From NCBI GenBank assembly GCA_017656505.1, contig JACDNU010000011.1, forward strand, positions 1 through 56,508: 56,508 nt of DNA. The letters run 5' to 3'. This stretch comes from Archaeoglobus sp. (GTDB lineage: Archaea > Halobacteriota > Archaeoglobi > Archaeoglobales > Archaeoglobaceae). This document shows positions 1,691 to 50,768 of this stretch, piece after piece. The notes under the pieces are model-generated. The model saw nothing but the letters and a program-made list of their open reading frames with translations. It made no database searches and was not told where the DNA came from. Each line of letters opens with the position of its first letter. Within the stretch, counting starts at the first letter, position 1. The translations under genes were made by a program, and so were the position numbers.

Positions 1691-1734
1691 CCCATTCACC
1701 TTTCTCGCATACCTTAATTTTCGCTTAACTTAAG

Positions 1735-3525: not shown

Positions 3526-3565
3526 CTTATCCCATCTTATCCAACATCTTATCTGACCATCCTGC

Positions 3566-3982: not shown

Positions 3983-4009
3983 CCGATCACCAGAATAAAA
4001 AATAAGAGA

Positions 4010-5899: not shown

Positions 5900-5903
5900 A
5901 AAA

Positions 5904-6467: not shown

Positions 6468-6499
6468 TTCAAGCACCCGATTTGACATTATCATTCATT

Positions 6500-23909: not shown

Positions 23910-24734
23910 TTAACTTCTTACTGGCTCGATCCTGCATGGAATAGCCCGATACGTAGGCGCTCCAGTTAAAGGCTCGAAGATGTTGGCAGTTAGTAGATTC
24001 GCGTTACAATTTTCCCACCCATGGGGTATTGAGATTGTGTATGGATGCATTTCGGATTTTATCAAGGCCTTAATCTCCAGTTCCCCGTATTTTGTTTTTA
24101 TTCTTATGAAATCTCCATCTGAAATCCCCTCTCTTTCTGAAATCTCCCTCCCAACCTCAGCAACCGGTTCAGGGATTAGCCTCTTCAAAGGTTCTATATT
24201 CCGGAATTGAGAGTGGTAGTAAGGCATAACTCTGGCCCCTGTAATCAAAAGGTAGGGGTATTCCCCGCTTTTAACTTGAATAAAATCCACTGGGGAAAGT
24301 TCTTGCATTTTCATTTTCTTTAGGATTTCAGGAAACAGCTCTATTTTCCTTGAAGGTGTTGGAAAACCATTTTTTCTTATCTCGCCAACGAGATTTTCAA
24401 GCAAAACTCCCTTCTCGAGCTCTTGGAAGGGATAACTTTTAACTTCTGTCCCTTTCAGAAGTTCTTTAAGAACGTCATCCTCGGAAGAGTATGGGAAGTA
24501 GCCCTGATACCCCATCTTTTTTGCAAGGGCCATAATGAATTCGGCCTCTGATTTTGCCTCCCCTAAAGGTTCAACGATTCTCCTCTTTATTTGAATCCAT
24601 CTGTATTTCTTCAGAGACACCGCATCGATTTCAGCCTTTTCGAAGAATGTGGAAGCTAGTAAAACGATATCCGCATACTTGCAGGTTGCGGTCATAAAGA
24701 TGTCATGTACAACAACCACCTCCAGTTTTTTCAT
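23910..24734 (-). pseudogene. Molybdopterin oxidoreductase, C-terminal part after a frameshift
   Basis: These 274 residues complete the enzyme begun at 25947. They start in the domain that binds the second pterin (VVVHDIFMTATCKYADIVLLASTFFEKAE) and end with the molydopterin dinucleotide-binding beta barrel (YLLITGARVMPYYHSQFRN; ISIPHGWENCNANLLTANIFEPLTGAP). The ATG used by this ORF is an internal methionine of the original protein. Deleting one A from the A6 run at 24748-24753 joins both ORFs through ...DTKKLIKAMKKLEVV..., giving about 680 residues. Without that, the fragment alone cannot form an enzyme. Confidence 0.85.
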
Positions 24735-24738
24735 CGCC

Positions 24739-25947
24739 TTAATTAGCTTTTTTAGTGTCGGGCAGAGTTAGTAGAGGATTGGATTTAAAAACAATCAACA
24801 CTTTTATGGGATAGCTGCCTGAGAGAATTACATCGCTGAGGTATGCACTGCAATCCTTGGCAAGGGGGAATTTGTCTTTCCAGAATGGTATTTTGGAATT
24901 TTTAGAGTTTTTGGAATCCAAGGGCTCTCCAAGTGTGATGTCGTTGAGTTTAATCGAGGGATTCCAGATCAGCCCTCCTTCAACATCAACATTCCCTGTA
25001 ATCGCTGAAAGTGTGGCTATCGCTCTCGAAGTTTGGAAGCCGTTAACGTTATGCAGCACACCCTCCCGTCTGTCTATAGCGGCTGGTTTAATGTTTCCGA
25101 GCAAATCCCCGACCTCCTCGATGAGCTTGGCAGGAATATCGGTTTCAGATTCCACGTATTCTATCGAGAAATCTTTTACTGATCCAGCAAGCTTTTCAAA
25201 ACCGGAGACGTGTTTTTCAACGAATTTTTTATCGTAAAGATCGTTTTCGATGAGGTAGTTAATCCATCCGAGAGCAAGGAAAATATCGCTTCCTGGTCTG
25301 ATTTTTAGATGGTAGTCCGCTATTTTCGCGGTTTCAGACCTCCTCGGATCGATTACAACGATCTTTGCTCCGTTTCTTTTGGCATGGAGTATGTCTTCTA
25401 CTATTCCGTAGTATCTGTGAATTCTGGAAACCAGAGGGTTCGTACCCCACAACACTATGAGTTTTGAGTTTGCGAAATCGCCTATCGGGTATGGAAAACC
25501 GAAAAGCATCTCCGAAGCAAGAACCTTCGGCCCAACACAGTAAGACCAGCTCCCGGTTACGTTTGGTGTTCCAAAAACGTTGGCAAACCTTTTCACAATA
25601 CTTCTATCGATTATTCTCGCAGCGGGGCCGTATAAGAATACTAGAGCCTCCTCTAATTTCTCTCTTTTAAGTTCTACAAGTTTTTCTGCAATCCTCTCTA
25701 AAGCTTCGTCCCAGCTTGTCTCTTTCCATTCTGGATTCCCTCTTTCGCCGACATTCAAAAGGGGTTTTCTAAGCCTTTCGGGATGGTAAAGGATTTCGAC
25801 GGAATTTTTTCCTTTAATACATAACTTGCCCCTATTGTTCGGGTTCTCGGGATCTCCCCTAACTCTAACTATTCTCCCGTTCTCAATCTCGGCAATCATT
25901 CCACAATCGCATTTACAAATCTGACAGATCGTTCTTCTTGCAATCAC
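24739..25947 (-). pseudogene. Molybdopterin oxidoreductase (DMSO reductase family), N-terminal part
   Basis: The 402 residues carry the N-terminal [4Fe-4S] motif CQICKCDCG ... LCIKGK, a segment ITGSWSYCVGPKVLA-like (VTGSWSYCVGPK) whose Cys is the likely molybdenum ligand, and the first pterin-binding domain (LIVLWGTNPLVSRIH, VVIDPRRSETA). The ORF ends TLPDTKKAN at a frameshift in an A6 run. The family includes formate dehydrogenases and thiosulfate, polysulfide and nitrate reductases; the short length (about 680 in total) and lone gene context do not decide the substrate. No ferredoxin or NrfD subunit is adjacent. Sequencing error, programmed slippage or true decay are all possible. Confidence 0.85.
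24748..24753 (-). other. A6 run at the molybdopterin-enzyme frameshift
   Basis: The coding strand reads ACT AAA AAA GCT AAT TAA. With five instead of six A residues it reads ACT AAA AAG CTA ATT AAG GCG ATG and continues into the second ORF. The two frames differ by exactly one base. Confidence 0.9.
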
Positions 25948-37206: not shown

Positions 37207-37296
37207 GTGGCGGAATTTACCTTTAATCCGGTTATTGGTGACTCCAACCCAGACAAAAATCGTTTTGATTGGGTTGAATTTGGGGTGAGTGAATGA
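37207..37296 (+). CDS. Candidate 29-residue leaderless ORF at the head of the membrane operon
   Basis: GTG 37207 lies about 28 bases after the TATA element, the right distance for a leaderless mRNA. The encoded peptide starts MAEFTFNPVIGDSNPDKNR and ends DWVEFGVSE. It looks like ordinary folded-protein sequence, and its TGA overlaps the ATG of the next gene as ATGA. It may be a small subunit, a leader for translational coupling, or the N-terminus of the HdrC protein displaced by a frameshift. No homologue is recognised. Confidence 0.45.
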   Translation: MAEFTFNPVIGDSNPDKNRFDWVEFGVSE

Positions 37297-38312
37297 GGGT
37301 TAACCCAGAATTTGCAAAAAAATTAAAAAAATTAGGGGCCACGAGGGTCACTGAATGCTTTAACTGCGGCAATTGCACTGCAATATGTCCATTATCAACT
37401 GAAGATTTCATGTTCCCCCGAAAGATCATAAGATATATCCAACTCGGCTTGGAACCCAGAGCAATTCAAAGCCCTGAACCCTGGCTTTGCCATGCATGTG
37501 GGGAATGCTCAACGACCTGTCCAAGACAAGCATTTCCCAGCGAGATCATGAATTCTGTGAGAAACTATGCTTTCATAAGTTATTCTACTCCGAGATTTAT
37601 GGGAGTGCTCTTCTCCTCACCAGTCTATCTGCCGATAGTAATAGCGATCTCAGCCGTTCTGCTCTACTTCTATCTTCATCTTGCCTTTTTGGGGTACCTT
37701 CTACTGGCTTACGTTGCTGTAGTGTCGATTTACAGCATATGGAAATTTTGGAGAGCACTCGGTGGAGAGACAGTTTCTGACTTTTTTGCAACTTTTAAGG
37801 AAACCCTTGCCGAAATTCTCAAACATGACAGGTTTACCAAATGTGAAACGAGTGCCTACAGATACTATGCTCACATCGGTGTCTTTTATGGATTCGTCAT
37901 CCTTGGCATCTCCAAGTTTGTGGCCATCCTCTCTTACATCCCTGGCAAAGTTCTAAACAACATAGGAGCAATCGTTCTGCTGGTTGGTGCTGTTTGGATT
38001 GTGAACAACAGAATAACCTACAGAGAGAGGGTTGGTTCTGGCAGCTACCATGATTGGTTCTTCATTTCCTTGGTTTTCCTCCTCACCATCACTGGAATAC
38101 TAAATGAGATGCTGAATTTCTCATCTCTAACTCTCATTGGCTATGTGGTGTATCTGCTTCACGGACTTTCTGCGATAATGATTTTCGTATTTGCACCATA
38201 TTCTAAGTTTATCCATGCCTTTTACCGGGGATTTGCGATGGTTATCGCTCGATCGAGGGAATCTGGGGAGTCAAAGGTTGAAGCAGAGGAAACAGCTGCA
38301 GAGGCTGCATAG
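37293..38312 (+). CDS. HdrC-type iron-sulfur domain fused to a diheme b membrane domain (QmoC/DsrM-like)
   Basis: The 339-residue protein begins with a two-cluster HdrC domain (CFNCGNCTAICP, CHACGECSTTCP; residues 20-85) and continues with about five membrane helices. Histidines in AHIGVFYG, YHDWFF, LLHGLSA and KFIHAFY could hold two b hemes, as in NarI, DsrM and QmoC. It should pass electrons between the quinone pool and a cytoplasmic Hdr partner. GGTGAG precedes the ATG. The first 30 residues are nearly identical to those of the soluble HdrCD protein at 45842. Confidence 0.9.
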   Translation: MRVNPEFAKKLKKLGATRVTECFNCGNCTAICPLSTEDFMFPRKIIRYIQLGLEPRAIQSPEPWLCHACGECSTTCPRQAFPSEIMNSVRNYAFISYSTPRFMGVLFSSPVYLPIVIAISAVLLYFYLHLAFLGYLLLAYVAVVSIYSIWKFWRALGGETVSDFFATFKETLAEILKHDRFTKCETSAYRYYAHIGVFYGFVILGISKFVAILSYIPGKVLNNIGAIVLLVGAVWIVNNRITYRERVGSGSYHDWFFISLVFLLTITGILNEMLNFSSLTLIGYVVYLLHGLSAIMIFVFAPYSKFIHAFYRGFAMVIARSRESGESKVEAEETAAEAA

Positions 38313-38363
38313 AGGTGAAGTGGAATGAATTCCTTTCGAAAACTCAAGAGCAGGGTGGTTTAA

Positions 38364-38849
38364 ATGGGTAGAAGATCGAGTGGGATAGGCAAAATGGATA
38401 AAATGAACAAAAATAATGAATTGAATATGGGTAAGAGTATGGGCAATATGAGCAATATGAGTAAAGTGAAAGGCTTGAAAAGCTTAATCATCCTGTCTTT
38501 GATCCTCTTTATGGTATTTCTAGTGGGCTGTGTTCAAAAAACAACTGAAGAAGTCTCATTAAAGCAAGTGGACATCCTTAAAGGATGTCAGTGCCATACT
38601 CGACCTTGGGAGTATTCTCCACACAAAGAAGGTGCTGAACATTGTCTAGAATGTCATACCATTAGCGCTCATCCCAAAGGAAATTGGAGCAGCGGGTATA
38701 GCTCTGATGATTTAACCAACTGTAAGAGATGCCATGAAACCAACCTAATCAGGGGACACCTGCCAACGGTAAAATGTGAAGATTGCCATGGTGATCCAGC
38801 AAAGATCCATGAAAAGTTTGAAAAGGAGCTGATGGGGGAGTCAAGATGA
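38364..38849 (+). CDS. Multiheme c-type cytochrome lipoprotein A1
   Basis: The 161-residue protein has an odd Met/Asn-rich, basic N-terminus of about 33 residues, a hydrophobic segment ending in the lipobox FLVGC (C about residue 53), and heme sites GCQCH, CLECH, CKRCH and CEDCH. The first lacks one spacer residue for CxxCH. GGGTGG five bases before ATG 38364 supports this start, although a later Met (MSKVKGLKS) would give a normal signal peptide. The cytochrome is probably anchored on the outside of the membrane. It is a paralogue of the gene at 41781 and overlaps the next gene as ATGA. Confidence 0.88.
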   Translation: MGRRSSGIGKMDKMNKNNELNMGKSMGNMSNMSKVKGLKSLIILSLILFMVFLVGCVQKTTEEVSLKQVDILKGCQCHTRPWEYSPHKEGAEHCLECHTISAHPKGNWSSGYSSDDLTNCKRCHETNLIRGHLPTVKCEDCHGDPAKIHEKFEKELMGESR

Positions 38850-39283
38850 AAAGGGTATTTATTTTAGCCATTTCAATTTTAGCTGTATTCATACTCTCAA
38901 TTGGAATCCTGCCGCTTGGAGCGGAGAATGCCAAAGATCCAGCTTCCGACTCGGTCTGTGATACGTGTCACAAAAACCCTTCTAAGTATGTGAAGCATAT
39001 GAAAGCTGGAAAATACTGCCAAGAATGTCATACCGACAACCTTCACTTTGTACATTCCTTGAACTGTACTGCTTGTCACTCGAGTAAGGTTTCAGAAGAC
39101 TTCTGTCATGAGACAAAGCCCAACCTTCAGGTGTTCGAATCTGGGGATTTCTCATCGTGCGAGAGCTGCCATACGAACGTAATTACTGAGCATCCGAACG
39201 TTAGCTGCGAAACCTGCCATCAGAATCCGGTCAAGATTCACACAAAGGCGGATAAATTTGCAACTGGATCTTCTGGGTCTTAG
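38846..39283 (+). CDS. Multiheme c-type cytochrome B1
   Basis: The 145-residue exported protein has an N-terminal signal/anchor (residues 1-25) and five CxxCH heme sites (CDTCH, CQECH, CTACH, CESCH, CETCH), plus a lone CH in EDFCHET located eight residues after the third site. The paralogue at 42149 keeps that FCH at the same spacing. Many further histidines could serve as distal ligands. It is translated with the preceding lipoprotein cytochrome (ATGA overlap), so the two likely act as a pair in electron transfer outside the membrane. Confidence 0.9.
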   Translation: MKRVFILAISILAVFILSIGILPLGAENAKDPASDSVCDTCHKNPSKYVKHMKAGKYCQECHTDNLHFVHSLNCTACHSSKVSEDFCHETKPNLQVFESGDFSSCESCHTNVITEHPNVSCETCHQNPVKIHTKADKFATGSSGS

Positions 39284-39300
39284 AGGATCAATAAAATTTT

Positions 39301-40515
39301 ATGGGTGATAACTTGAGAAAACTGGAAGTCATAGCCGGGTTGGTTTTAGTAATCCTAATCCTAATCGGTGGATTGGGAGTACTCCAGATGCATACCCAGC
39401 CGGTTATGCCTATCGAGCCATTTGAGTCGGCAGTGGGTATTCCGTGGAGGACACTTGTTGCCGTTTACGTTTTCTTCGTCGTCTCTACAACTGGTTTGTG
39501 TATTGTAGCATCTTTGGGAGAAGTCTTTGGCTTCACGAAACTCGAACCCATTGTAAAAGAGGGCTTGCTCATGGCCCTCGTCACTATCCTTATAGGCCTT
39601 ATGACAATCGGCTTAGAAATCGAGCAGGTTACAAGAGGCTACTATGCGATGATCGGCCACGTTAATGCAAAAAGCGTGATGTTCTGGATGATTATGTTCT
39701 ACGTTCTTTACGTTGTCTTCCTCATAGTTGAGATGTGGTTTTACTTCTACGATGATTTACTCGAACAGAGAAAAAGTGAAGGACTCAGGGGCTTGGTTGC
39801 AAGAATACTTACGATTCCAAAAGCTACGGACACGAAAGATTTCGCAAGGGTTATCGGGTTTATAACCGTTTTCACAGCGATTGTCGCTCATAGTAACCTC
39901 GGAGCCCTCTTTGGGGTGAACTACCTTCCGTTCTGGCACGGCCCATTGCTGCCGGTTTATTTCATCCTCTCAGCAATCGTTTCGGGGGCAGCCCTGACAG
40001 TAATAGGAGCATACCTAACCGATCTCATAAGGGGGGTTAAGATTGAGGGAGAGAGATATGAAGCGATTCAGATGCTTAGGCTAGTTCTGGGCTTCTCCCT
40101 CGTTGTAACAATATTCTTCACTGCATGGAAACTTGTAGTCAAAGCGTACCCGAATTCAACCCTTCTGTCAAGGGAAGGTGTAGAAGTTTTCCTGTCTGGA
40201 AACTTTGCGTTTAACTTCTGGGTAATGGAAGTGCTGATCGGACTTCTGATTCCCCTGATCTTGCTTGCAGTTCCACAAACTGGAAGAAAAGCTGGAGGTG
40301 TTTTTGCTGCTTCTCTGCTTACTATCATAGGCATATTCTTCCTTAGAATAGACTTGGTAATGGGTGGGTTAGTTCCGAAGCTAATCACGGGATTGAGATT
40401 TCCCTCTCCCGTCTATCATCCCTTTGAACTCATGGCAACTGCAGGATTCTTTGCCCTTGCGATCTTTCTCTACTACATCGGCTACAAGCTCCTTCCAATG
40501 GAGGTGGAAGGATGA
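39301..40515 (+). CDS. NrfD/PsrC/DsrP-type membrane subunit
   Basis: The 404-residue protein has about ten membrane helices and NrfD-family marks: WRTLVAVYVFFVVSTTGLCIVASLGEVFG, GLEIEQVTRGYYAMIGHVN, VAHSNLGALFGV and WHGPLLPVYFILSAIVSGAAL. Such subunits have no heme and oxidise or reduce menaquinol for a ferredoxin-like partner. The partner gene, a Tat-exported ferredoxin, overlaps by four bases (ATGA). It corresponds to DsrP or HmeB of sulfate reducers. Confidence 0.93.
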   Translation: MGDNLRKLEVIAGLVLVILILIGGLGVLQMHTQPVMPIEPFESAVGIPWRTLVAVYVFFVVSTTGLCIVASLGEVFGFTKLEPIVKEGLLMALVTILIGLMTIGLEIEQVTRGYYAMIGHVNAKSVMFWMIMFYVLYVVFLIVEMWFYFYDDLLEQRKSEGLRGLVARILTIPKATDTKDFARVIGFITVFTAIVAHSNLGALFGVNYLPFWHGPLLPVYFILSAIVSGAALTVIGAYLTDLIRGVKIEGERYEAIQMLRLVLGFSLVVTIFFTAWKLVVKAYPNSTLLSREGVEVFLSGNFAFNFWVMEVLIGLLIPLILLAVPQTGRKAGGVFAASLLTIIGIFFLRIDLVMGGLVPKLITGLRFPSPVYHPFELMATAGFFALAIFLYYIGYKLLPMEVEG

Positions 40516-41273
40516 AAAAGGGAAAGATGAAAAGGCGAAACTTCCTCAAGCTCATTGCAGGATTAATCCCGATTACAGCTTTTACCACATTAACAAAGGC
40601 ATTCAAGGCTGGAGAAAGTGGGAAAAGCTATGTAATGGTTGTTGATGTTAACAAGTGCATAGGATGCGGAAAGTGTGTTATCGCCTGCAAAACCGAGAAT
40701 GGTGTTCCAATGGAACTCCCACTTTCCAGAACTTGGATTGAGGGGTATTCTGTTGAAGAAAAGATACCGATATCGGAGTCTGAGGTGAAAAAGAAGGTGC
40801 TCAGCACTTCCGAGAATCCATTCCTTGATAAAGACTGGATTGAGGACACGAAAAACCTCAAAACTTTCTATGTCCCTAAGCTTTGCAACCATTGCATCAA
40901 CGCTCCATGCGTGAACGTTTGCCCGGTTTATGCTAGGTTTTACACGAGGGATGGAATCGTGCTCGTTGATAAGGAGACTTGTATTGGATGCAAGTACTGC
41001 ATTGTAGCATGCCCCTATGGGGCGACTTTCCTTCATCCTGAGCAGGGGGTTACCGATAAGTGTACATTTTGCTATCACAGAATAGAGAGGGGTTTGCAGC
41101 CCGCATGTGTTTTGGCATGCCCGACTGGAGCGAGAGTTTTCGGAGACATAAACGATGAAAACAGCGAGGTTAGCAAGCTTGTGCGAGGAAACAAAGTGAG
41201 CGTTCTCAAGCCGGAAGAAGGCACATTTCCGAGGGTGCTTTACATTGGGCTCGACTCGTATGTGGTGGAATAG
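40512..41273 (+). CDS. Tat-exported four-cluster ferredoxin (DsrO/HmeA-like)
   Basis: The 253-residue protein starts with a twin-arginine signal (KRRNFLKLIAGLIPITAF) and then has four cysteine groups (CIGCGKCVIAC, CNHCINAPCVNVC, CIGCKYCIVAC, CTFCYHRIERGLQPACVLAC). It should dock on the outer side of the NrfD subunit encoded immediately upstream. The set NrfD plus Tat-ferredoxin plus cytochrome is the DsrP-O-J module. Two nearby Met codons (residues 1 and 6) could start translation; the RR motif is near the N-terminus either way. Confidence 0.93.
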   Translation: MKKGKMKRRNFLKLIAGLIPITAFTTLTKAFKAGESGKSYVMVVDVNKCIGCGKCVIACKTENGVPMELPLSRTWIEGYSVEEKIPISESEVKKKVLSTSENPFLDKDWIEDTKNLKTFYVPKLCNHCINAPCVNVCPVYARFYTRDGIVLVDKETCIGCKYCIVACPYGATFLHPEQGVTDKCTFCYHRIERGLQPACVLACPTGARVFGDINDENSEVSKLVRGNKVSVLKPEEGTFPRVLYIGLDSYVVE

Positions 41274-41301
41274 CTGAATGGAGTTGAATGGAGTGGTATA
41301 A

Positions 41302-41715
41302 GTGAAGGGAAAAACGATAGTTCTCGGAGTGATATTCGGTGTAATTGTTTACTTAATCCTTTTCACCTATGTTTTTGGATTTTCTCCTTTTGTAACAGGC
41401 AGCAGTCAATCAAAATGGATTGAACTCGAGCTTTCAAGAGAACCGAAGTTTTCCGACACGGCTATCTGTAAGGAGTGTCACTACCAGCTTTACACTGGAA
41501 TGAAGAATCATTCAAGCGTTAATTGTGAAGCTTGTCATGGCCCAGGGGCTGAGCACACGATTAAGCGATCAAAGGACACCATCGAGATAAACAGAAGCAG
41601 AGATGCCTGTCTGAGATGTCATATGGAAATCGCTGGCAGGAATGCTGTAAAAGTCGTGAATGAGAGCCATAGCACTGGCATCCTCTGCGTTGTCTGCCAC
41701 AATCCCCATGAATAA
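41302..41715 (+). CDS. Tetraheme c-type cytochrome (DsrJ-like position)
   Basis: The 137-residue protein begins at GTG, has one N-terminal membrane anchor (residues 5-27) and four CxxCH sites (CKECH, CEACH, CLRCH, CVVCH). The domain resembles the NapC/cytochrome c554-like CxxCHxxx...ACHGPG pattern. Its place after NrfD and the Tat-ferredoxin is that of DsrJ, which has three hemes in sulfate reducers; here four canonical sites are present. Confidence 0.9.
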   Translation: MKGKTIVLGVIFGVIVYLILFTYVFGFSPFVTGSSQSKWIELELSREPKFSDTAICKECHYQLYTGMKNHSSVNCEACHGPGAEHTIKRSKDTIEINRSRDACLRCHMEIAGRNAVKVVNESHSTGILCVVCHNPHE

Positions 41716-41780
41716 ATTGGGGGTCTATACTTTTTGGTTTATACTTTTTAAGATTCAATTCCCTTGTTGGAGGGGTGGTT

Positions 41781-42152
41781 GTGGATAAAAGAGTAGTTTC
41801 CCTAGCGCTGATTTTTGCTTTGATTCTAGTTGGATGTGTTCAGAAAGTTCAAGTTTCAGAGAAAGAGACTCAGGGTTTGGAGATTCAAAATAGGGTTCAG
41901 GACTGCCAGTGCCACGAAAAGGCATACAAATATCCATATCACGTTAATGGAACGAATTACTGTCTTGACTGCCATAAAATTGAGGAGCATCCAAAAATGA
42001 GTGAATATTCAGATTTGAAGGATTGCTCTAAATGCCATGAAAATAGTCTTTTCCGAATTCATATGCCGAACCATTCATGCGTGGAATGCCATGGTGATGC
42101 TAAATCTATTCACCAAAAATTCGAAAGCAAGTTTCTGGAGGAAGAGAAATGA
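41781..42152 (+). CDS. Multiheme c-type cytochrome lipoprotein A2
   Basis: The 123-residue paralogue of the gene at 38364 has a short signal ending in the lipobox LILVGC, followed by the same VQK, then DCQCH, CLDCH, CSKCH and CVECH. The non-canonical CQCH is again the first site. GTG 41781 follows GGAGGGG at a good distance; the GTG at 41775 is the alternative. It overlaps the next gene as ATGA, exactly as the A1-B1 pair does. Confidence 0.88.
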   Translation: MDKRVVSLALIFALILVGCVQKVQVSEKETQGLEIQNRVQDCQCHEKAYKYPYHVNGTNYCLDCHKIEEHPKMSEYSDLKDCSKCHENSLFRIHMPNHSCVECHGDAKSIHQKFESKFLEEEK

Positions 42153-42652
42153 AGCTTAAATTTTGGTCCTTCTTCATTCTGCTCTTGGTTTTAATCATCT
42201 TTTCAGCTGTAATAAACGCCGAGAAAGCGGGGAAATCAATCGGATCAGCTGAATCAACTGGCTCAATTGAACCAACTGAACCAACTGGCTCAATTAAACC
42301 AACTGAAGCCAGTGAACTCAATTTCAATCTCTCCTGTGATGAATGCCATGCTAATGCGGCTTTATATCCTAAGCATCTGCAAGGCTACACTTACTGCGAG
42401 GAATGCCATGGGGGGGAGGTTCACACCATCCACTCTTTTGACTGCAAGACCTGCCATCAAAACGAACCGTTAACACCTTTCTGCCATGGGGCTGACCCTG
42501 ACGTTCTGATTCCGACTGCGAATGGTTTGATATGCAAGGCATGTCACGAGAGCAATCTCATAAGTGTTCACGAGGACTGCCAACTCTGCCATCAAAACAT
42601 CAACGAGATTCACAAGAATGCTGATGTAATAGGAGGTGTTGGCGATGTTTGA
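42149..42652 (+). CDS. Multiheme c-type cytochrome B2
   Basis: The 167-residue paralogue of B1 has a signal/anchor (residues 1-24), a low-complexity linker with repeated GSIEPTEPT-type residues, and five CxxCH sites (CDECH, CEECH, CKTCH, CKACH, CQLCH). A conserved single FCH lies eight residues after the third site, as in B1. The linker is absent from B1. It overlaps the HdrE-HdrD gene by 8 bases. The A2-B2 pair is a tandem duplicate of A1-B1 with clear divergence. Confidence 0.9.
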   Translation: MKLKFWSFFILLLVLIIFSAVINAEKAGKSIGSAESTGSIEPTEPTGSIKPTEASELNFNLSCDECHANAALYPKHLQGYTYCEECHGGEVHTIHSFDCKTCHQNEPLTPFCHGADPDVLIPTANGLICKACHESNLISVHEDCQLCHQNINEIHKNADVIGGVGDV

Positions 42653-44552
42653 GACAATCTATTACGTGATGCTGGTTCTATCGCTTGCAGGTTTCAGCTA
42701 TGGAATTTGGCAGAAGTGGAAGTTCATTAACATTGGCTTGAAAGGAGAAAACCGAACTCAAAACCCATGGAAAAGACTTTGGTTCGTGGTAAGGGATGGA
42801 TTAGTTTTAGTGAGACTTTATCTAAGGGAATCAAAAATGGGGATCTCACACTTTCTTTTTCTTTGGGGAGTTATTGTTATTCTCATAAATATTTTAATCT
42901 TCACGATCTCATTCGTTTTTCCTGATCTTTTCAGACTCAGCTATCCCTGGCTTAAAGCATCGATGACTGTGGCGGGCATAATGCTCCTAATTGGTTTGGC
43001 TATCGCTGCGATCAATCGATTTCTAATTAAGCCAAGCAGATTTGATAGAAAGTATGAATTCGCTAAGGACGATAATCCGGTGCTTGCAATCTTCATCCTT
43101 GCAGCGATATTCGGCTTCGTACTCAAAGAATTCGTAAGGTTCAGTGATTTCAACACAACCTCTTTGCCCTACATCCTCTGGTTCCTCCATACGGTTTTCA
43201 TTCTGGCCTTCATCGCTTTAATTCCGTACACTAAGCTGCTCCACATATTTGCTGCTCCAATTAGCATCTTCACGAAAAGCGAGAGAAAGCCGGGGGTTAT
43301 GAGAGCTCCGCTGGGAGAGGAATATATGGGAGCTATAAGCCCGGCAGATCTCACAAGGAGAGATTTGCTTGCAAGTCTTGCTTGCATGAGGTGTGGAAGG
43401 TGCCAGGATGCCTGTCCGGCCACCAATTCCGGAGCAACTTTGAATCCGATGTTTTTGATGCAGAACATCAGGAGGCTGGAAAGGGTTTTGAAGGAAAGCG
43501 AAAACGGAGAATCCGGTGATGAGGGTAAAAACGAACAGAAAGCCGAGGACATACTTCTGCTCGATACGATAATGGACATGGAAGGTGTTTGGGCCTGCAC
43601 CACTTGTAGAGCTTGCATGGAGATGTGCCCAGTTTACATCGAGCAGATGGAGATTCTTGGTGAGATGAGGAGGGGGATAGTTGAGAGCGCCGAAGCTCCT
43701 CCTGACATAAGGGACTTCCTCACTAACATTCAGAAACAGAAGAATCCTTGGGGGGAGGCGAAGTTCAAAAGGGATCAATGGAAAAAGGGAGCTGAAATTG
43801 ACATTCCATTAGCTAAAGACACTGAATTCGAATGGCTCTGGTTTGTTGGCTGCGCTCACAGCTTCGATAACCGAAACAAACCGATAACGCAAAAGATAGC
43901 TAAACTTTTGGCTGATATAGGCATAAACTATGCGATTCTGGGGAGAGAGGAGGGATGCTGTGGCAACGATGTGAGGAGGGTCGGAGAAGAGGGTTTGTTC
44001 CAGATCTTGAGGGACGAGAATCTTCAGACGTTTGAAAAGTATGGGGTTGAAAGGATAATTGCTACTTCTCCTCACTGTTACAATACCTTCAAAAACGAGT
44101 ATGATGGCTACGACGTTAAATTTATTTTAGAGGTTATTTACGAGGCGATAAAATCCGGAAAGCTCAAATTGAAGAATCCAATCAATAAAAAAGTAACATT
44201 TCATGATCCCTGCTACCTTGGAAGGTACAACGGGATGTATGAGTTGCCAAGAGAGATTCTAAAATCCATTCCAGGTATAGAGCTCGTTGAGATGCCAAGG
44301 AATCGGGAAAGGAGTTTCTGCTGTGGAGCTGGAGGAGGAAATCTTGTAAGGGAATATCCCGGCGAGGATAGGCCGAACAACATTAGGGCCAGAGAAGCTG
44401 CCTCAACAACTGCTGACATTTTAGCTGTCGCGTGCCCCTTTTGTATGATAATGCTTGAAGATGGGGTGAAAACCGAAAGACTGGATGATAGGCTCGAGGT
44501 TTTGGACGTTATAGAGCTGGTCTGGAAGTCTGCTTACGGAGTTGAAGGATGA
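42645..44552 (+). CDS. HdrE-like membrane domain fused to HdrD (HmeD/DsrK-like)
   Basis: The 635-residue protein has about five N-terminal membrane helices (to residue 215, with His in GISHFLFLWG, LHTVF and LLHIF for b hemes), a two-cluster ferredoxin domain (CMRCGRCQDAC; CTTCRACMEMC) and two CCG domains (GCAHS...EGCCGND...SPHCYN and DPCYLG...SFCCGAGGGN...ACPFC). CCG domains bind the noncubane [4Fe-4S] clusters that split disulfides in HdrD. It should connect cytoplasmic disulfide chemistry to membrane quinones. ATG 42645 is chosen for GGAGGTG upstream. The C-terminal 400 residues closely match the soluble HdrCD protein. Confidence 0.92.
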   Translation: MFETIYYVMLVLSLAGFSYGIWQKWKFINIGLKGENRTQNPWKRLWFVVRDGLVLVRLYLRESKMGISHFLFLWGVIVILINILIFTISFVFPDLFRLSYPWLKASMTVAGIMLLIGLAIAAINRFLIKPSRFDRKYEFAKDDNPVLAIFILAAIFGFVLKEFVRFSDFNTTSLPYILWFLHTVFILAFIALIPYTKLLHIFAAPISIFTKSERKPGVMRAPLGEEYMGAISPADLTRRDLLASLACMRCGRCQDACPATNSGATLNPMFLMQNIRRLERVLKESENGESGDEGKNEQKAEDILLLDTIMDMEGVWACTTCRACMEMCPVYIEQMEILGEMRRGIVESAEAPPDIRDFLTNIQKQKNPWGEAKFKRDQWKKGAEIDIPLAKDTEFEWLWFVGCAHSFDNRNKPITQKIAKLLADIGINYAILGREEGCCGNDVRRVGEEGLFQILRDENLQTFEKYGVERIIATSPHCYNTFKNEYDGYDVKFILEVIYEAIKSGKLKLKNPINKKVTFHDPCYLGRYNGMYELPREILKSIPGIELVEMPRNRERSFCCGAGGGNLVREYPGEDRPNNIRAREAASTTADILAVACPFCMIMLEDGVKTERLDDRLEVLDVIELVWKSAYGVEG

Positions 44553-44681: not shown

Positions 44682-45842
44682 TTAGCCCTCTTCGGGGCCA
44701 TAAACAGACTCGTAAACGAGCTCGATTATATCTCTCACAACTATCTTGTCATCGACTTTTTGCACCTTAACTCCGTCCTCCAGCATTATCATGCAGAATG
44801 GACATGCAACAGCAAGAACCTCTGCGCCCGTGTCTGCAGCCTCTTTCGCTCTGAGGTTGTTTGGTCTTATTTCTCCAGGATACTCGCTCACCACAAATCC
44901 TGCTCCACCACCGCAGCATAGAGCTTCTCTTCTGTTTCTTGGCATTTCTACGAGTTCTACGCCAGGAATCAATTTTAGAATCTCCCTTGGCAGTTCGTAG
45001 ATGTCGTTGTATCTCCCGAGATAACACGAGTCGTGGTAGGTAACCTTTTTGTTTACGGGGTGTTTCAGGGTTAGCGCGCCACTCTTTATGGCATCGTAGA
45101 TTATCTCCAAAAGTAGTTTTACGTCGTAGCCATCGTACTCGTTTTTGAAGGTATTGTAGCAGTGGGGTGATGCTGTAACTATCCTCTCCACACCATATTT
45201 TGCAAAGATTTGCTCGTTCTCTTCTTTCAAAAGCAGGAATAGACCTTCTTCTCCTGCTTTTCTCGCATCGTTTCCGCAGCAACCTTCTTCTCTTCCAAGG
45301 ATTGCATAGTTCAGTTCTATGTCATTCAGAAGTCTTGCTATCTTTTTACTTACCTCAATATTTCTGTTGTCAAAGCTATGCGCACAATCGACAAACCAAA
45401 GCCATTCGAATTCGGGGTTCTCTTTTACAGTAGGAGGTGGAGAATCAGCCTTTTTTCTCCACTGATCTCTCTTGAATTTCCCTATACCCCACGGATTTCT
45501 CTGTTTCTGGAGATTGTTCAGGAAGTCTCTCATGTGAACTGGGCACATACCACTCTCGATTATGTCCTTCCGTATAGCAACCATTATTTCGCTGGGGTAT
45601 GCCTCTCTCGGACATGTGACGGTGCACTGAGCGCATGTGAGGCATAGCCAAACTTCTGGGGCATTTAGCACCTTCTCCTCAAGTCCAAGCTGTATGTATC
45701 TTATTAGCCTTCTTGGAAAGGTTCCGTTGTTCTGCGGTGTAACAGGACATATGGCCGTACAGTTTCCGCAATTGAAGCACTCTGTAACCTTTGCTGCGCC
45801 TAACTCTTTAAATTCGGTAGCCAAAGTGGGATTAACCCTCAT
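44682..45842 (-). CDS. Soluble HdrC-HdrD fusion (disulfide reductase subunit)
   Basis: The 386-residue protein joins a two-cluster HdrC domain (CFNCGNCTAICP; CLTCAQCTVTCP) to two CCG domains (DCAHS...EGCCGND...SPHCYN; DSCYLG...ALCCGGGAG...ACPFC). It has no membrane segment. The ferredoxin part resembles the protein at 37293 (MRVNP..A...K.LGA..VTECFNCGNCTAICP) and the CCG part resembles that at 42645 (LQKQRNPWG, FKRDQWRK, SFDNRN). It is the last gene of the minus-strand DsrE-TusA-MvhD-HdrA operon and probably its catalytic disulfide subunit. Confidence 0.92.
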   Translation of the reverse strand: MRVNPTLATEFKELGAAKVTECFNCGNCTAICPVTPQNNGTFPRRLIRYIQLGLEEKVLNAPEVWLCLTCAQCTVTCPREAYPSEIMVAIRKDIIESGMCPVHMRDFLNNLQKQRNPWGIGKFKRDQWRKKADSPPPTVKENPEFEWLWFVDCAHSFDNRNIEVSKKIARLLNDIELNYAILGREEGCCGNDARKAGEEGLFLLLKEENEQIFAKYGVERIVTASPHCYNTFKNEYDGYDVKLLLEIIYDAIKSGALTLKHPVNKKVTYHDSCYLGRYNDIYELPREILKLIPGVELVEMPRNRREALCCGGGAGFVVSEYPGEIRPNNLRAKEAADTGAEVLAVACPFCMIMLEDGVKVQKVDDKIVVRDIIELVYESVYGPEEG

Positions 45843-45852
45843 TTACTCACCT

Positions 45853-46242
45853 TTACTCACTTTTCTCAGCTAGCTCGTAGGTAAAATATCCTTCTACTTC
45901 CTCAACCTCTCTAACCTCACCATATTTCCATAAAGTGAACAAGTGCCAAGTCACGACTTTAGACTCCAAATTGGTTTCGGAGACGATTTGCGGTATCGTT
46001 TTCGGGCCGGATTTCAGAGCTTCCTTGATTGCTTTAACGATCTGTCTCTGCTTTTTGTGTCTCTCCCTAAGCTCTTCTGATGCTTTTATTCCGGTTTTAT
46101 CTCTGAATTCCTTTAAGGTTGACTTCTTCTTTGGTTTTTCCTTTGCTTTTTCCGCTTTTTCCGCTTTTTCAGTCTTTTTTGCTTCAGTTTCTTCTGTCTG
46201 TTCTGGTTTTTCGGCTTTCTCAGCCTTACCCTCCTCAGCCAT
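45853..46242 (-). CDS. Winged-helix protein with Lys/Glu/Ala-rich N-terminus
   Basis: The 129-residue protein has an N-terminal half dominated by short KAEK/EKPE repeats (to about residue 45), probably a flexible or coiled tail. A winged-helix domain follows (RQIVKAIKEALKSGPKTIPQIVSETNLESKVVTWHLFTLWKYGEV, then a beta wing). ATG 46242 is chosen because GGAGGTG lies just upstream and overlaps the HdrA stop. It sits between hdrA and the HdrCD gene, so it may regulate the operon or be a structural part of the complex. I cannot tell which. Confidence 0.75.
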   Translation of the reverse strand: MAEEGKAEKAEKPEQTEETEAKKTEKAEKAEKAKEKPKKKSTLKEFRDKTGIKASEELRERHKKQRQIVKAIKEALKSGPKTIPQIVSETNLESKVVTWHLFTLWKYGEVREVEEVEGYFTYELAEKSE

Positions 46243-46244
46243 GG

Positions 46245-48182
46245 TCACACCTCCTCAACCATTGCATCTATCATCTTCCTCAGCTGATCGTATCGGTATC
46301 CTCTGAGATTTATCGCCTCCTCCGGACAAATTCCACCGCATGCTCCGCAACCTATGCACAGAACCTCATTTATAAACGCCTTTTTCTCTCCGCCCGCCAC
46401 CTCTTTTAGTTCGATAGCCTCCGTTGGGCATTCGGGTACGCAGTCTCCACAGCCTGTGCACTTTTCGGCATCAACTTCAGCGATGAAAGGCTCCAACTCG
46501 GTGTATCCTTTGAGGGTGTAAGTTTCTGTTTTAGCAGCAACAGCTGAAGCGGAAGCTGTTGTCTCGACTGTGTCTCTTGGAGCTTGGCAAGTTCCGCAAA
46601 TCAGAACTCCTCCGATGGCAGTCTCCACAGGCCTTATTTTTGGATGAATCTCTTGTAGGAAGCCATCTCGGCTGAATGGAACTCTTAGCATCTGGAAGAC
46701 ATCTTCATTTCTTGGCTCCATCCCAACAGAGAGCACAACCATATCCACAGGAAGCTCGATCTCCTCTCCGAAGGTTAGCTGATCTTTCACCTTGACAATG
46801 AGCTTATCGCCCTCTTTCTCAACTACCGGTGGCTCCTCTGGCACATATCTCAGGAAAAGTTCTCCTTTTTTGCCTGCCTCCTCGTAGTATCTCTCATACT
46901 TTCCGTAAGCCCTTATGTCTCGATAGATATGATAGATTCTGAGGTCGTTGTATTTCTCCAGTGCAGCCAGAGATGCGTTCAGTGTTGCTGTACAGCAATA
47001 ACGGGAGCAGTACTCATGTTCCCCATCCTTTTCCCTGCTGCCAACACAGTAAATGAACGCTATCTCCTTCACTTCTTTGCCGTTGTAGGTTAACTTTCCG
47101 TTGGACAATGCCATCAATCTCTCGAAGACAGGCAGAGTTATTACCCCTTCAAACTGCTTGTATCCGAACTCTCCTTCCTTTGGCTCGTAGGGGTTGAAAC
47201 CAGTAGCGAGAACAATTGTGCTGACATCAAATTCAACAGTCTCAGCTTCCTGCTCGAGATTTATAGCCCCACCGCAAATCTTTACACATTCACCACATTT
47301 ATTGCAGTTCTCCATATCAATTACTGGTAGCTCCGGATATGCACCCTCGTATGGATAGTAGATAGCCTTTCTTTTTGTCAAGCCGTAGTTGAACTCGTCA
47401 GGAACCTCAATCGGGCACTTTTCTATGGCATCATTGAAATTGCTGCAATTTCCAACAACATACCTGGGATTTACCTGAACGACGACGTGGAATTTGCCTA
47501 TCGTGCCTCCCAGAGATTTTATCTCTGCATTTGTGAAGAGTTTGATCTTTGACTCCTCTTTCTTGAGTTCCTCTATCAGCTCCTTGATAATTTCGCTCCC
47601 CATTCTACCGCTCGGATACGCTCCGTATCCTTGAGCAACCCTACCACCGATAAATGGCTGCTTTTCAACAAGATAAACCTCAACATCAGCCTTTGCCAGA
47701 TCCAAAGCGGCTCTGATCCCTGCGATACCGGCTCCAACAACGAGAACCTTCGGTTCCATGTCAACTCTTATAGTGGAAAGCTCTCTGGCTAAACTCACCT
47801 TTGCGATGCCCGATCTAACAAGTCTGATCGCTTTTTCGGTTGCAGCTTCCGGTTCATGCTTGTGAACCCAAGCCGAGTGCTCTCGAATGTTTATCTGCTC
47901 GAAGAGATATGGATTAAGGCCTCCTCTCTGGACAGCACCCCTGAAGGTTAGCTCATGCAGGTGGGGGGAGCACGATGCAACTACCACACCATTAAGATTG
48001 TAGTTTTTAATATCATCCTCAATCAGCTTTTGCCCCGGATCGGAGCACATGAACATGTATTCTCTGGCAACAGCGACCTCGGGCATATCTTTAACAGCTT
48101 CAACAACCTTGTAAACGTCAACAACATCGGATATATTTCCTCCACAATGGCAGATGTAAACCCCAATCCTATCGTTTACCAC
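46245..48182 (-). CDS. hdrA: HdrA-type FAD/iron-sulfur subunit, long form
   Basis: The 645-residue protein has the HdrA N-terminal domain (GVYICHCGGNI; MCSDPGQKLIEDDI), an FAD Rossmann fold (VLVVGAGIAGIRAALDLAKA, QPFIGGRVAQ), an inserted ferredoxin-like cluster (CNKCGECVKIC), the HdrA cysteine set SRYCCT and two C-terminal [4Fe-4S] motifs (CTGCGDCVPECP; CIGCGACGGICP). HdrA carries the electron-bifurcating flavin in Hdr complexes. It is similar in layout to QmoB/HdrA of sulfate reducers. It lies between the short HdrA gene and the winged-helix gene. Confidence 0.95.
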   Translation of the reverse strand: MVNDRIGVYICHCGGNISDVVDVYKVVEAVKDMPEVAVAREYMFMCSDPGQKLIEDDIKNYNLNGVVVASCSPHLHELTFRGAVQRGGLNPYLFEQINIREHSAWVHKHEPEAATEKAIRLVRSGIAKVSLARELSTIRVDMEPKVLVVGAGIAGIRAALDLAKADVEVYLVEKQPFIGGRVAQGYGAYPSGRMGSEIIKELIEELKKEESKIKLFTNAEIKSLGGTIGKFHVVVQVNPRYVVGNCSNFNDAIEKCPIEVPDEFNYGLTKRKAIYYPYEGAYPELPVIDMENCNKCGECVKICGGAINLEQEAETVEFDVSTIVLATGFNPYEPKEGEFGYKQFEGVITLPVFERLMALSNGKLTYNGKEVKEIAFIYCVGSREKDGEHEYCSRYCCTATLNASLAALEKYNDLRIYHIYRDIRAYGKYERYYEEAGKKGELFLRYVPEEPPVVEKEGDKLIVKVKDQLTFGEEIELPVDMVVLSVGMEPRNEDVFQMLRVPFSRDGFLQEIHPKIRPVETAIGGVLICGTCQAPRDTVETTASASAVAAKTETYTLKGYTELEPFIAEVDAEKCTGCGDCVPECPTEAIELKEVAGGEKKAFINEVLCIGCGACGGICPEEAINLRGYRYDQLRKMIDAMVEEV

Positions 48183-48208
48183 GTTTCCACCCCTGCATCT
48201 TTTTTGCT

Positions 48209-49549
48209 TTACTTTCCACTAACAACTCCTTCAGGCTCGGCAGTTTCGACCTTACTGATCTTGTACCCAAGCTCGTAGAGATAGTCTATGCACTGAGCTG
48301 CTGCTGCGCCGGCCTCAACAATCGAATCCGGTATATCTTTGGGCCCTGAAGCACATCCTGCAACGAATACTCCCTTCACATTTGTAAGAACCGGATTAGC
48401 GTTCACATCAAACTGGTTGATGAAGCCATAGGGGTCGAGTTCAACGTTTACATTCTTGAAAACCTTGATAACATCGGAATTTGCGAGCAGGCCGATAGCA
48501 AGCACGACCATGTCGTATTCTTCCTCTTCTATTTCTCCCGTCTCGAAGTTCTCAACTCTAACAATCAGGTTGTTGTTCTCTGTCTCCTCGATCTTTGCAA
48601 CCTTTCCTTTTACAAACCTGATTCCCATGTCTTCAGCCATGTTGTAGAATTCCTCGAATCCTTTCCCGAATGCTCTTATGTCCATATAGTATACAGTCAA
48701 ATCCGCCAGCAACTGAGCGGCGGAGAAGAGTATTGCCTGCTTAGCCGAGTACATGCAGCACACTCTTGAACAAATCGGGTTGCCCAGTGATTTATCTCTC
48801 GAGCCCACACAGAGCACCCATGCAACTTTGTCTGGTATTTTGCCATCGGAAGGCCTCAGAACAGCATTGTAAGGCCTTGATGGAGCAAGTAACCTTTCCA
48901 TTTCTAGGGCATGGATTACATTTGGATACTTCCCATACCCGTACTCGGTCTTCAAAGCCGCATCGAACGGTTTGAATCCTGTTGCGAGGATGACTGCTTT
49001 AACTTCAAATTCAAGCTCTTCTGGCTGCTGGAGAAAGTTTACAGCTTCAGTAGGGCATACCCTCTCGCATCTACCGCAAAGAATGCAGTTATCCAGATCT
49101 ATCTGCGCTATTCTCGGGGATGCCATAGCAAAGTAAATGTAGGCTGCCTTTCTGGCCACCAAACCGTAATTGTACTCATCAGGAACCAAAACAGGACAGG
49201 CGTATTCACACCTTTGGCATCCAATACAAGCATCTTCATCAATATATCTTGGTCTCTTCAAAACTTTAACCTTAAATTTACCTTCATCTTCTTTATAGAT
49301 TTCCTTAACTTCAGAATAGGTCATCATCTTGATATTTGGGTGTTTTGAGGTGGCGGCAATCTTTGGTGATATAATACAACCGGCACAATCGGTAGTAGGG
49401 AATACTTTGCTCAGCTCTGCCATCTTGCCACCAATACTTGGAGATTTTTCGACCAATAAAACTTTGTAACCTGCATCGGCCAGCACCAAGGCAGATTCCA
49501 TTCCGGCTACCCCACCCCCAATGACAAGAGCGTCATATTTTTCGACCAT
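48209..49549 (-). CDS. HdrA-type flavoprotein, short form (QmoA-like)
   Basis: The 446-residue protein has the FAD fold (ALVIGGGVAGMESALVLADAG), the family stretch TTDCAGCIISPKIAATS, two inserted clusters (CIGCQRCEYAC; CILCGRCERVC), SRVCCMYSAKQA, and a C-terminal FAD contact GVFVAGCASGPKDIPDS. It lacks the N-terminal and C-terminal ferredoxin parts of full HdrA, as QmoA does. Two unequal HdrA chains side by side suggest a heterodimer in place of the usual HdrA homodimer. GAGGTGA lies before ATG 49549. Confidence 0.94.
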   Translation of the reverse strand: MVEKYDALVIGGGVAGMESALVLADAGYKVLLVEKSPSIGGKMAELSKVFPTTDCAGCIISPKIAATSKHPNIKMMTYSEVKEIYKEDEGKFKVKVLKRPRYIDEDACIGCQRCEYACPVLVPDEYNYGLVARKAAYIYFAMASPRIAQIDLDNCILCGRCERVCPTEAVNFLQQPEELEFEVKAVILATGFKPFDAALKTEYGYGKYPNVIHALEMERLLAPSRPYNAVLRPSDGKIPDKVAWVLCVGSRDKSLGNPICSRVCCMYSAKQAILFSAAQLLADLTVYYMDIRAFGKGFEEFYNMAEDMGIRFVKGKVAKIEETENNNLIVRVENFETGEIEEEEYDMVVLAIGLLANSDVIKVFKNVNVELDPYGFINQFDVNANPVLTNVKGVFVAGCASGPKDIPDSIVEAGAAAAQCIDYLYELGYKISKVETAEPEGVVSGK

Positions 49550-49562
49550 TGTTTCACCTCTC

Positions 49563-49976
49563 TTAGGACTTCTTTATCGGTCCTAACTCCTCTAAGGTCT
49601 TTTCAAGCTCCTCGGTTTTTCCTACAATCGTCTCAACGCAAGTTGAGCATACTCCTGATAGCACTAGTCTCTCACCCTCTATTCCGTGCTCCTTTAGTAA
49701 CTCGTAAGCCTTCTCGACTCTTTTTGCTGTTTTATCAACGCATTTCTCTCCCATGAACGGGCAGTCAGGCCCGCTAGATGCAACAAAAACACCGTCGAAT
49801 CCCTTCTGAAATGCATACAGAATGAGCTCTGGTCTCAGTAAGCTAGCACAGGGTATTCTTACGATGTAGGTTGTGGAAGGATACTCTGACTTCGTCAGCC
49901 CTGCCATATCTGCAGCTCTGTAAGCCATCTCAGCGGCAAAAATTAAAATTTTAGGTTTAAAGTTTTCTTCCGCCAT
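49563..49976 (-). CDS. MvhD/FrhD-like delta subunit
   Basis: The 137-residue protein matches the MvhD family (ILIFAAEMAYRAADMAG; VRIPCASLLRPELILYAFQKGFDGVFVASSGPDCPF; SGVCSTCVETIVGKTEEL). MvhD carries a [2Fe-2S] cluster and links hydrogenase or formate dehydrogenase to HdrA. No hydrogenase subunits are here, so an alternative donor is expected. The start MAEENFKPK (49976) is preferred to the 13-codon extension because it follows GTGGAG. Confidence 0.92.
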   Translation of the reverse strand: MAEENFKPKILIFAAEMAYRAADMAGLTKSEYPSTTYIVRIPCASLLRPELILYAFQKGFDGVFVASSGPDCPFMGEKCVDKTAKRVEKAYELLKEHGIEGERLVLSGVCSTCVETIVGKTEELEKTLEELGPIKKS

Positions 49977-49995
49977 ACTTACTCCACTTCTTACT

Positions 49996-50250
49996 TCACT
50001 TTGTCTTTTTAACAAAAAGTCTGTCGTACCCGCTCTCCTCTACATACCCAAGGAATTCGTGACCAAGTTTCTTGCAGAGAGTTGGCAGATCTCTTCTTGT
50101 TCCCTTGTCGGAAGAGAGCACCTCAAGAATCCCGCCGACTGGAACTTTCGTCAATGCCTTCTTTGCTTCGAGCATTGGCCCAGGGCATGACTGACCTCTG
50201 GCATCCACAACCAAATCCGCCTTTAGGTTCTTCAATTCCTCAACATCCAT
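49996..50250 (-). CDS. tusA: TusA-family sulfur carrier
   Basis: The 84-residue protein has the TusA signature ARGQSCPGPMLEAKKAL, in which the Cys of CPGP carries a persulfide. In sulfur-oxidising and sulfur-disproportionating microbes TusA hands sulfane sulfur to DsrE-type proteins and to Hdr-like complexes. ATG 50250 is chosen for GGAGGTGAT upstream. It lies between DsrE and MvhD-like genes in the operon. Confidence 0.95.
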   Translation of the reverse strand: MDVEELKNLKADLVVDARGQSCPGPMLEAKKALTKVPVGGILEVLSSDKGTRRDLPTLCKKLGHEFLGYVEESGYDRLFVKKTK

Positions 50251-50318
50251 TTTAATCACCTCCAACTTTTAATCTATAAGGCTGTCTAAAAATTTTTTCG
50301 AATAGTGCGGAACAACGC

Positions 50319-50768
50319 CTATCCGATGTAGTAAGTGTACAGTGCCTTGCTGGCAATTTCATGCCACTCAAAGACTCCTGTTATGTCGTCAACGAGGTCA
50401 TCGAAAGCTGATGTGGTGTTTACACCCCACTGCTCGGCTGCAGTTGAACATACAAGTATCTCAAGTAAGCCCTCTTCCTTAGCCTCCTTGAAAAGCTCAT
50501 ACCATGAAGCGGTTCCAGCTCGCTTCATTTCCTTTATTACGGAGGCTGCATACTGTTTGTATTCCGGAGACCAGAAACTGTTTTCATCAAACTGATCCAG
50601 TTTTTGGATGTTCTCTTTGAGGAATGCCCAAGCACCCCATGTCTGCAGGAATACTACCACCTTAGCACCCATCATCGTCGCTCCGGTAACAAGAGAAGAG
50701 AGGTTCTGCAGCGCGTCAACTGTTCCCTTATTCAAAACAACCGCAACAATTTCTTCCTCCTCGGCCAT
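50319..50768 (-). CDS. DsrE/DsrF-like sulfurtransferase-family protein
   Basis: The 149-residue protein has the DsrE fold pattern: IVAVVLNKGTVDALQNLSSLVTGATMMGAKVVVFLQTWGAWAFLK, and the Cys-containing strand LEILVCSTAAEQWGV, where the Cys sits at the active position of DsrE. DsrE proteins bind persulfide and exchange it with TusA. It is the first gene of the TusA-MvhD-Hdr operon. The TATA at 50792-50802 predicts a leaderless mRNA beginning at ATG 50768. Confidence 0.92.
   Translation of the reverse strand: MAEEEEIVAVVLNKGTVDALQNLSSLVTGATMMGAKVVVFLQTWGAWAFLKENIQKLDQFDENSFWSPEYKQYAASVIKEMKRAGTASWYELFKEAKEEGLLEILVCSTAAEQWGVNTTSAFDDLVDDITGVFEWHEIASKALYTYYIG

Follow-up and report, generated by a model that had tools for sequence, protein, structure and literature searches.

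Why would a membrane complex built from quinone and Hdr-type subunits carry five multiheme cytochromes? The question is raised by an operon of the heat-loving sulfate reducer Archaeoglobus sp. (assembly GCA_017656505.1), encoded at 37293-44552 on the forward strand of contig JACDNU010000011.1, of which we analysed positions 1 to 56,508 (56,508 nucleotides, hereafter the window). Nine open reading frames (ORFs), never more than 59 bp apart and overlapping at four start/stop junctions, follow one another in the order QmoC-like, cytA3, cytB5, NrfD, FeS, cytC4, cytD3, cytE5 and HdrED (Table 1), so that a cyt3-cyt5 cytochrome pair is present twice, as cytA3-cytB5 and cytD3-cytE5. The domain calls (an HdrC-HdrE fusion, NrfD, a four-cluster Fe-S protein with a twin-arginine (RR) signal, and an HdrE-HdrD fusion) agreed with the first-pass annotation of this DNA, as did its five cytochromes, its count of 20 canonical CxxCH sites (3+5+4+3+5 in gene order) and its two lipoproteins, cytA3 and cytD3, each with an LVGC lipobox. 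No CxxCH was found outside these five cytochromes in window ORFs of at least 80 residues. The first-pass interpretation, a Dsr/Hme-like quinone-thiol complex with an extracellular partner such as Fe(III) or sulfur, was partly supported overall: the membrane location, the quinone/Hdr-type build, the additional hemes on the exoplasmic side and the Archaeoglobales host stand, the rest does not fare as well. We propose, at about even confidence, that the product is a form of the electron-transferring flavoprotein (ETF):menaquinone oxidoreductase (EtfD/EMO) family that is wired through cytochromes.

The proposal starts from HdrED, an AF0755-type fused HdrDE whose best solved relative is by a wide margin EtfD (9ojn; 264 bits over the membrane and soluble parts, against ~25 bits for HdrB). 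The b heme of EtfD is ligated by His78 and His241, and His583 closes its cluster D2 (PMC13083937). These residues align with H72, H203 and H480 of HdrED, and the D2 cysteines with C526, C562/C563, C600 and C603; H72, H203, H480, C526, C562, C563, C600 and C603 are invariant in 16/16 Archaeoglobales sequences. HdrED thus has the b-heme and D2 ligands of EtfD, including the counterpart of His583, in one chain with five transmembrane (TM) helices, two [4Fe-4S] clusters and two CCG domains. The retained D2 histidine, which makes the cluster of EtfD non-catalytic, argues against disulfide reduction, and the thiol half of the first-pass interpretation is doubtful for an HdrD-like part nearest EtfD. 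Cluster D1 differs from EtfD, where a linear [3Fe-4S] cluster is ligated with Thr539: HdrED has C442 for Thr539 and S478 for Cys581. The D1 cysteines are also missing in FadF and DgcB, and this site is not defining for all EtfD/EMO members. The C-CC-CxxC sets of Hdr are not found in both CCG domains either, domain 1 having SPHC for CxxC. Judged by these ligands, HdrED is a relative of EtfD/EMO whose D1 site is intermediate.

Gene linkage connects HdrED relatives to fatty-acid metabolism. An orthologous acyl-CoA synthetase (72-95% identical) is encoded 98-119 bp upstream of cyt3 in three genomes (G011, G024 and G032), and in UBA230 (G019), likewise in S5B8, the same gene converges on HdrED from 5 bp downstream; the orthologue adjoins cyt3-cyt5-HdrED in three lineages, a neighbourhood uncorrected for phylogeny. 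No further homologues of this synthetase were found in any other fetched locus. The HdrED gene of G036 overlaps one for an acyl-CoA dehydrogenase. AF0755 of A. fulgidus was induced on H2 along with beta-oxidation genes (PMC3949148), bacterial EMO is a diheme protein working in a membrane-potential-driven reverse redox loop (PMC8805022), and NrfD-type subunits have been proposed as ion translocators (PMC8076601). From the synthetase and dehydrogenase linkage, the co-induction of AF0755, the reverse loop of EMO and the ion role of NrfD together, ETF:menaquinone chemistry is in our judgement about twice as likely as disulfide reduction.

The cytochrome-linked HdrEDs, all ten of which form one group against the stand-alone homologues, are remodelled on their outer face. 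A histidine of helix 1 close to its outer end, present in 6/6 stand-alone proteins, is a tyrosine in 10/10 cytochrome-linked ones (Tyr9 in the window); the outer N-terminus shrinks from 27-63 residues to 6-9, and the TM4-5 loop, also on the outside, from 34 residues to 17-18 (31 in one protein). Cytoplasmic inter-helix loops have equal lengths in both groups. We read these changes as a sign that docked cytochromes may have taken the place of an outer heme/quinone site. AlphaFold models were of low confidence, with a mean predicted local distance difference test score of 42.6 for HdrED (5 rows) and 46.8 for cyt3 (6 rows).

In a survey of 38 Archaeoglobales genomes, mostly metagenome-assembled, the operon was seen to join two modules, NrfD-FeS-tetraheme and lipo-cyt3/cyt5/HdrED, which are confined to Archaeoglobales as far as searched; NrfD orthologues (41-84% identical) were found only there in both collections searched. 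Nine genomes have both modules, one more (G037) has the second module as a contig-end fragment, and 28 have neither (Fisher p ~6e-8, uncorrected for shared ancestry). The three-gene unit NrfD-FeS-cytC4, a contiguous NrfBCD-type set of NrfD, four-cluster Fe-S and multiheme subunits, stands alone in many genomes. It is followed by cyt3-cyt5-HdrED in UBA230, S5B8, JdFR-27 (G003) and AUK153 (G013), while in G011, G014, G024 and G032 cyt3-cyt5-HdrED is encoded elsewhere in the genome, apart from the NrfD unit. The UBA230 locus (L025), in the A. fulgidus genus, holds the operon core with an NrfD 84% identical to that of the window; A. fulgidus itself is without it, and lateral transfer is possible.

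The cytochromes have conserved peculiarities of their own. The heme c site is classically CxxCH, yet the first site in 11/11 cyt3 sequences is CQCH, one residue shorter, with a single residue between the cysteines. When 22 proteins were aligned jointly, its two cysteines and histidine coincided with those of the first CxxCH in cyt5, and a tyrosine and a distal histidine nine residues past CQCH are also conserved. Invariant histidines of cyt3 number eight, four after motifs and four distal (six-row and five-row alignments). Because of the alignment with cyt5 and these eight histidines, a heme at CQCH is likely, attached by one or two thioether bonds, which makes this invariant site a direct test case for the limits of heme c attachment. 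A profile search of cyt3 against the PDB gave weak NrfH/NrfB-like scores only, and a paper search, in which subscription journals were mostly uncovered, found no published description of a CX1CH/CXCH heme motif. In cyt5, a lone CH (FCH or LCH) that lacks the first cysteine is invariant in 11/11 proteins and could possibly hold a single-thioether heme or serve as an unusual ligand; the 11 invariant histidines fit five bis-His hemes and one spare. The two pairs of the window are ~38% identical, and A3-B5 branches (on a long branch) outside all fused-type D3-E5 pairs. A recent tandem duplication was rejected, as D3-E5 is closer to its orthologues in other genera than to A3-B5.

How acyl-CoA dehydrogenation electrons are moved uphill to menaquinone in anaerobes is a central bioenergetic question, and the operon suggests one way. 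Acyl-CoA dehydrogenases would reduce an ETF-type flavoprotein, the presumed partner with which HdrED would exchange electrons on the cytoplasmic side through its CCG domains and [4Fe-4S] clusters, two of each. A single b heme (H72/H203) would take the electrons across the membrane, since a ligand of the other b-heme site, the outer one of the stand-alone homologues, has apparently been lost (His to Tyr9) along with the outer segments. On the exterior, the pentaheme cyt5 and the lipoprotein cyt3 would dock on the remodelled face of HdrED and pass electrons through tetraheme cyt4 and FeS to NrfD, where menaquinone would be reduced. The uphill step could be powered by the membrane potential or by ion coupling at NrfD, and the flow may also run in reverse. 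The duplicated arm (QmoC-like, cytA3 and cytB5) probably links a further partner in the cytoplasm, perhaps the HdrA cluster next to the operon, to the same heme network. Should all of this hold, with a cyt3 heme bound through CX1CH, an outer b heme and quinone site would have been replaced by ~22-24 exoplasmic c-type hemes leading into an ion-coupled NrfD, a new reverse-electron-transport machine for anaerobic fatty-acid oxidation; we put this full version forward tentatively, leaning somewhat to doubt.

Several points weigh against ETF:menaquinone chemistry. The Hdr side of the score comparison was soluble HdrB, membrane-bound HdrD having no solved structure. CCG domain 1 retains the Hdr-type second cysteine, C442, which EtfD replaced by Thr539; because C442 is kept and Ser478 stands where EtfD has Cys581, cluster D1 may carry out disulfide chemistry. 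The nearest acyl-CoA dehydrogenase gene is 30 kb off (7471-8613), and no fatty-acid gene adjoins the window operon. AF0755 was also co-induced with Vht hydrogenase (PMC3949148), and the membrane topology was drawn from hydropathy and charge only.

The alternative that survives best, which we nevertheless consider rather unlikely, is a Dsr/Hme-like quinol:disulfide complex, with electrons passing from menaquinol at NrfD through FeS, cyt4 and cyt5/cyt3 to HdrED and on to a cytoplasmic disulfide, e.g., DsrC trisulfide. Its part types are the same as those of DsrMKJOP, dsrAB occurs in most module holders that were scored for dsrA, two CCG domains are present in HdrED and C442 matches the extra Hdr cysteine, and AF0755 has been proposed as a membrane Hdr (PMC3949148). 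However, HdrED is far nearer EtfD, relatives of the operon are linked to acyl-CoA synthetase, dsrAB was undetected in the holders G014 and G037, and the host already encodes DsrK and DsrJ by dsrAB. In the host genome (2.52 Mb, 95 contigs, 99.6% complete; the window is its contig C11), DsrK (684.9 bits), a DsrJ-like triheme and a DsrO-like Fe-S protein lie alongside dsrAB on contig C7, and canonical qmoABC is on contig C21; the window complex is therefore additional to the sulfate-reduction complexes. Its own subunits scored otherwise: HdrED reached 73 bits for DsrK (cut-off 400), FeS reached 198 bits for DsrO (cut-off 200) and was placed by the tree outside the clade of DsrO (100/100), and cytC4 has four CxxCH and other profile matches, unlike a triheme DsrJ. 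With full-scoring DsrK and DsrJ on C7 and FeS outside DsrO, we rejected the operon as a DsrMKJOP, enlarged or not. FeS is nearer to the Fe-S protein of a host cluster on contig C20, and Geoglobus and Ferroglobus carry units similar in make-up to that cluster. The C20 cluster (locus L034, 9578-13579) is a second NrfD-FeS-tetraheme set, with an octaheme cytochrome. Cytochrome-c assembly genes were found in the host, and methyl-coenzyme M reductase, which was looked for in its genome, was not found. The host's genus also holds a single-contig genome of 2,076,931 bp, presumably A. sulfaticallidus.

Beyond the operon lies a conserved cluster, DsrE-TusA-FlpD-HdrA'-HdrA-small protein-HdrCB (44682-50768, reverse strand). 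Its order is kept where covered in G004, G008, G013, G020 and G021, and its last subunit varies between HdrCB, QmoC-like, and separate HdrC and HdrB. That the duplicated arm works mainly as a hub from this cluster to menaquinone in the host genome seems improbable to us. The cluster is only 130 bp away and convergent, as are its final two genes (small protein, QmoC-like) to cyt3-cyt5-HdrED in G004; a QmoC-like anchor ends it in G004, G020 and G021, HdrCB taking that place in the window; and by its HdrC domain the window QmoC-like protein belongs with those clusters. Yet G003, UBA230 and S5B8 have the six-gene core without an adjoining TusA/FlpD/HdrA cluster, and the HdrE domain is closer to canonical QmoC (on a long branch), so that the protein looks like a domain chimera. 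It reached 242.7 bits for QmoC (cut-off 300) without qmoAB context, and compared with canonical QmoC it retains the four heme-b histidines and lacks parts of two loops that are outside by predicted topology. The CCG part of HdrCB is 70% identical to that of HdrED. QmoC-like, cytA3 and cytB5 are missing from the syntenic G003 locus, QmoC-like being absent here in all relatives seen; they were therefore either gained in the window lineage or lost outside it.

Extracellular electron transfer, as suggested at first pass, would have the extra hemes exchange electrons with Fe(III) or sulfur, or else with another cell; it is the least probable reading of all. In its favour are the lipoprotein and secreted cytochromes on the exoplasmic side, with at least 20 hemes in one operon. 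The comparison with iron reducers that the first pass proposed came out against it: the module is missing in two of them, which we take to be F. placidus and G. ahangari and which have 30 and 25 clustered pairs of heme motifs at other loci. Its holders are mainly genomes that have dsrAB and few other multiheme cytochromes. In the host, clustered pairs are confined to DsrJ, the window operon and the C20 NrfD cluster, and there is no large surface or S-layer cytochrome, shared with iron reducers, that would cross the S-layer. Archaeoglobus species have also been described as cytochrome-poor and not using Fe(III) (PMC4600277).

Elsewhere in the window, a CODH (CooS-like) gene with NuoE/F-like and ferredoxin genes (980-6494, reverse strand) was recognised by eye from the sequence, and a similar set, likewise seen by eye, adjoins the NrfD module in L092. 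Two neighbouring ORFs (23910-25947, reverse strand) resemble by eye a split molybdopterin oxidoreductase, possibly through a frameshift. PADLOC gave no matches on the window.

Table 1. Genes of the window operon and the adjoining HdrCB gene.
Gene	Position	Strand	Description
QmoC-like	37293..38312	+	Cytoplasmic HdrC-type 2x[4Fe-4S] domain fused to HdrE-type membrane cytochrome b
cytA3	38364..38849	+	Lipoprotein cytochrome; 3 CxxCH + 1 CQCH, predicted tetraheme; downstream Met may be true start
cytB5	38846..39283	+	Secreted pentaheme; 5 CxxCH + lone CH; cytE5 duplicate
NrfD	39301..40515	+	NrfD-type integral membrane quinone subunit
FeS	40512..41273	+	RR (Tat) signal; 16 cluster cysteines = 4x[4Fe-4S]; NrfC/TtrB-like, outside DsrO clade
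cytC4	41302..41715	+	Membrane-anchored tetraheme cytochrome of the NrfD-FeS module
cytD3	41775..42152	+	Lipoprotein cytochrome; 3 CxxCH + CQCH; orthologous to cyt3 of other genomes
cytE5	42149..42652	+	Secreted pentaheme cytochrome; orthologous to cyt5 of other genomes
HdrED	42636..44552	+	HdrE-type membrane domain of five helices with 2x[4Fe-4S] and two CCG domains; EtfD/EMO-like; in the cytochrome-linked clade (Tyr9 for TM1 His)
HdrCB	44682..45842	-	Last gene of convergent TusA-FlpD-HdrA-HdrA cluster; possible partner, candidate member of the complex

Compared with known systems, the operon borrows from several. With DsrMKJOP/Hme it shares the logic of HdrE, HdrD, cytochrome, Fe-S protein and NrfD, in the same organism group, whereas its cytochromes are not DsrJ, HdrE and HdrD are fused, and cyt3 and cyt5 are extra. 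Like QmoC, its QmoC-like protein is an HdrC-HdrE fusion with four heme-b histidines, but with another HdrC type, trimmed outer loops, and cytochromes in place of QmoAB-AprAB. NrfBCD-type quinol:cytochrome c modules have the same NrfD, four-cluster Fe-S protein and small multiheme; those of Geoglobus and Ferroglobus adjoin octaheme or 12-heme cytochromes, whereas the window module has no NrfA or octaheme partner and is coupled to HdrED instead. AF0755-type HdrDE, a full-length homologue and the stand-alone counterpart in genomes without the cytochromes, keeps the TM1 histidine and long outer segments; our comparison suggests that this archaeal 'membrane heterodisulfide reductase' may be an ETF oxidoreductase. 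One archaeal family thus offers a natural series for comparative testing, from stand-alone HdrED to HdrED with cyt3-cyt5, then joined to NrfD, then duplicated. Closest are EtfD of mycobacteria and EMO of Syntrophus, ETF:menaquinone oxidoreductases with the same parts in a single chain, the same heme and D2 histidine ligands and, as seen in relatives, the same linkage to acyl-CoA genes; those enzymes reduce menaquinone directly, whereas HdrED has lost one TM histidine and the outer segments, differs in its D1 ligands, and is joined by five c-type multihemes and an NrfD-FeS unit.

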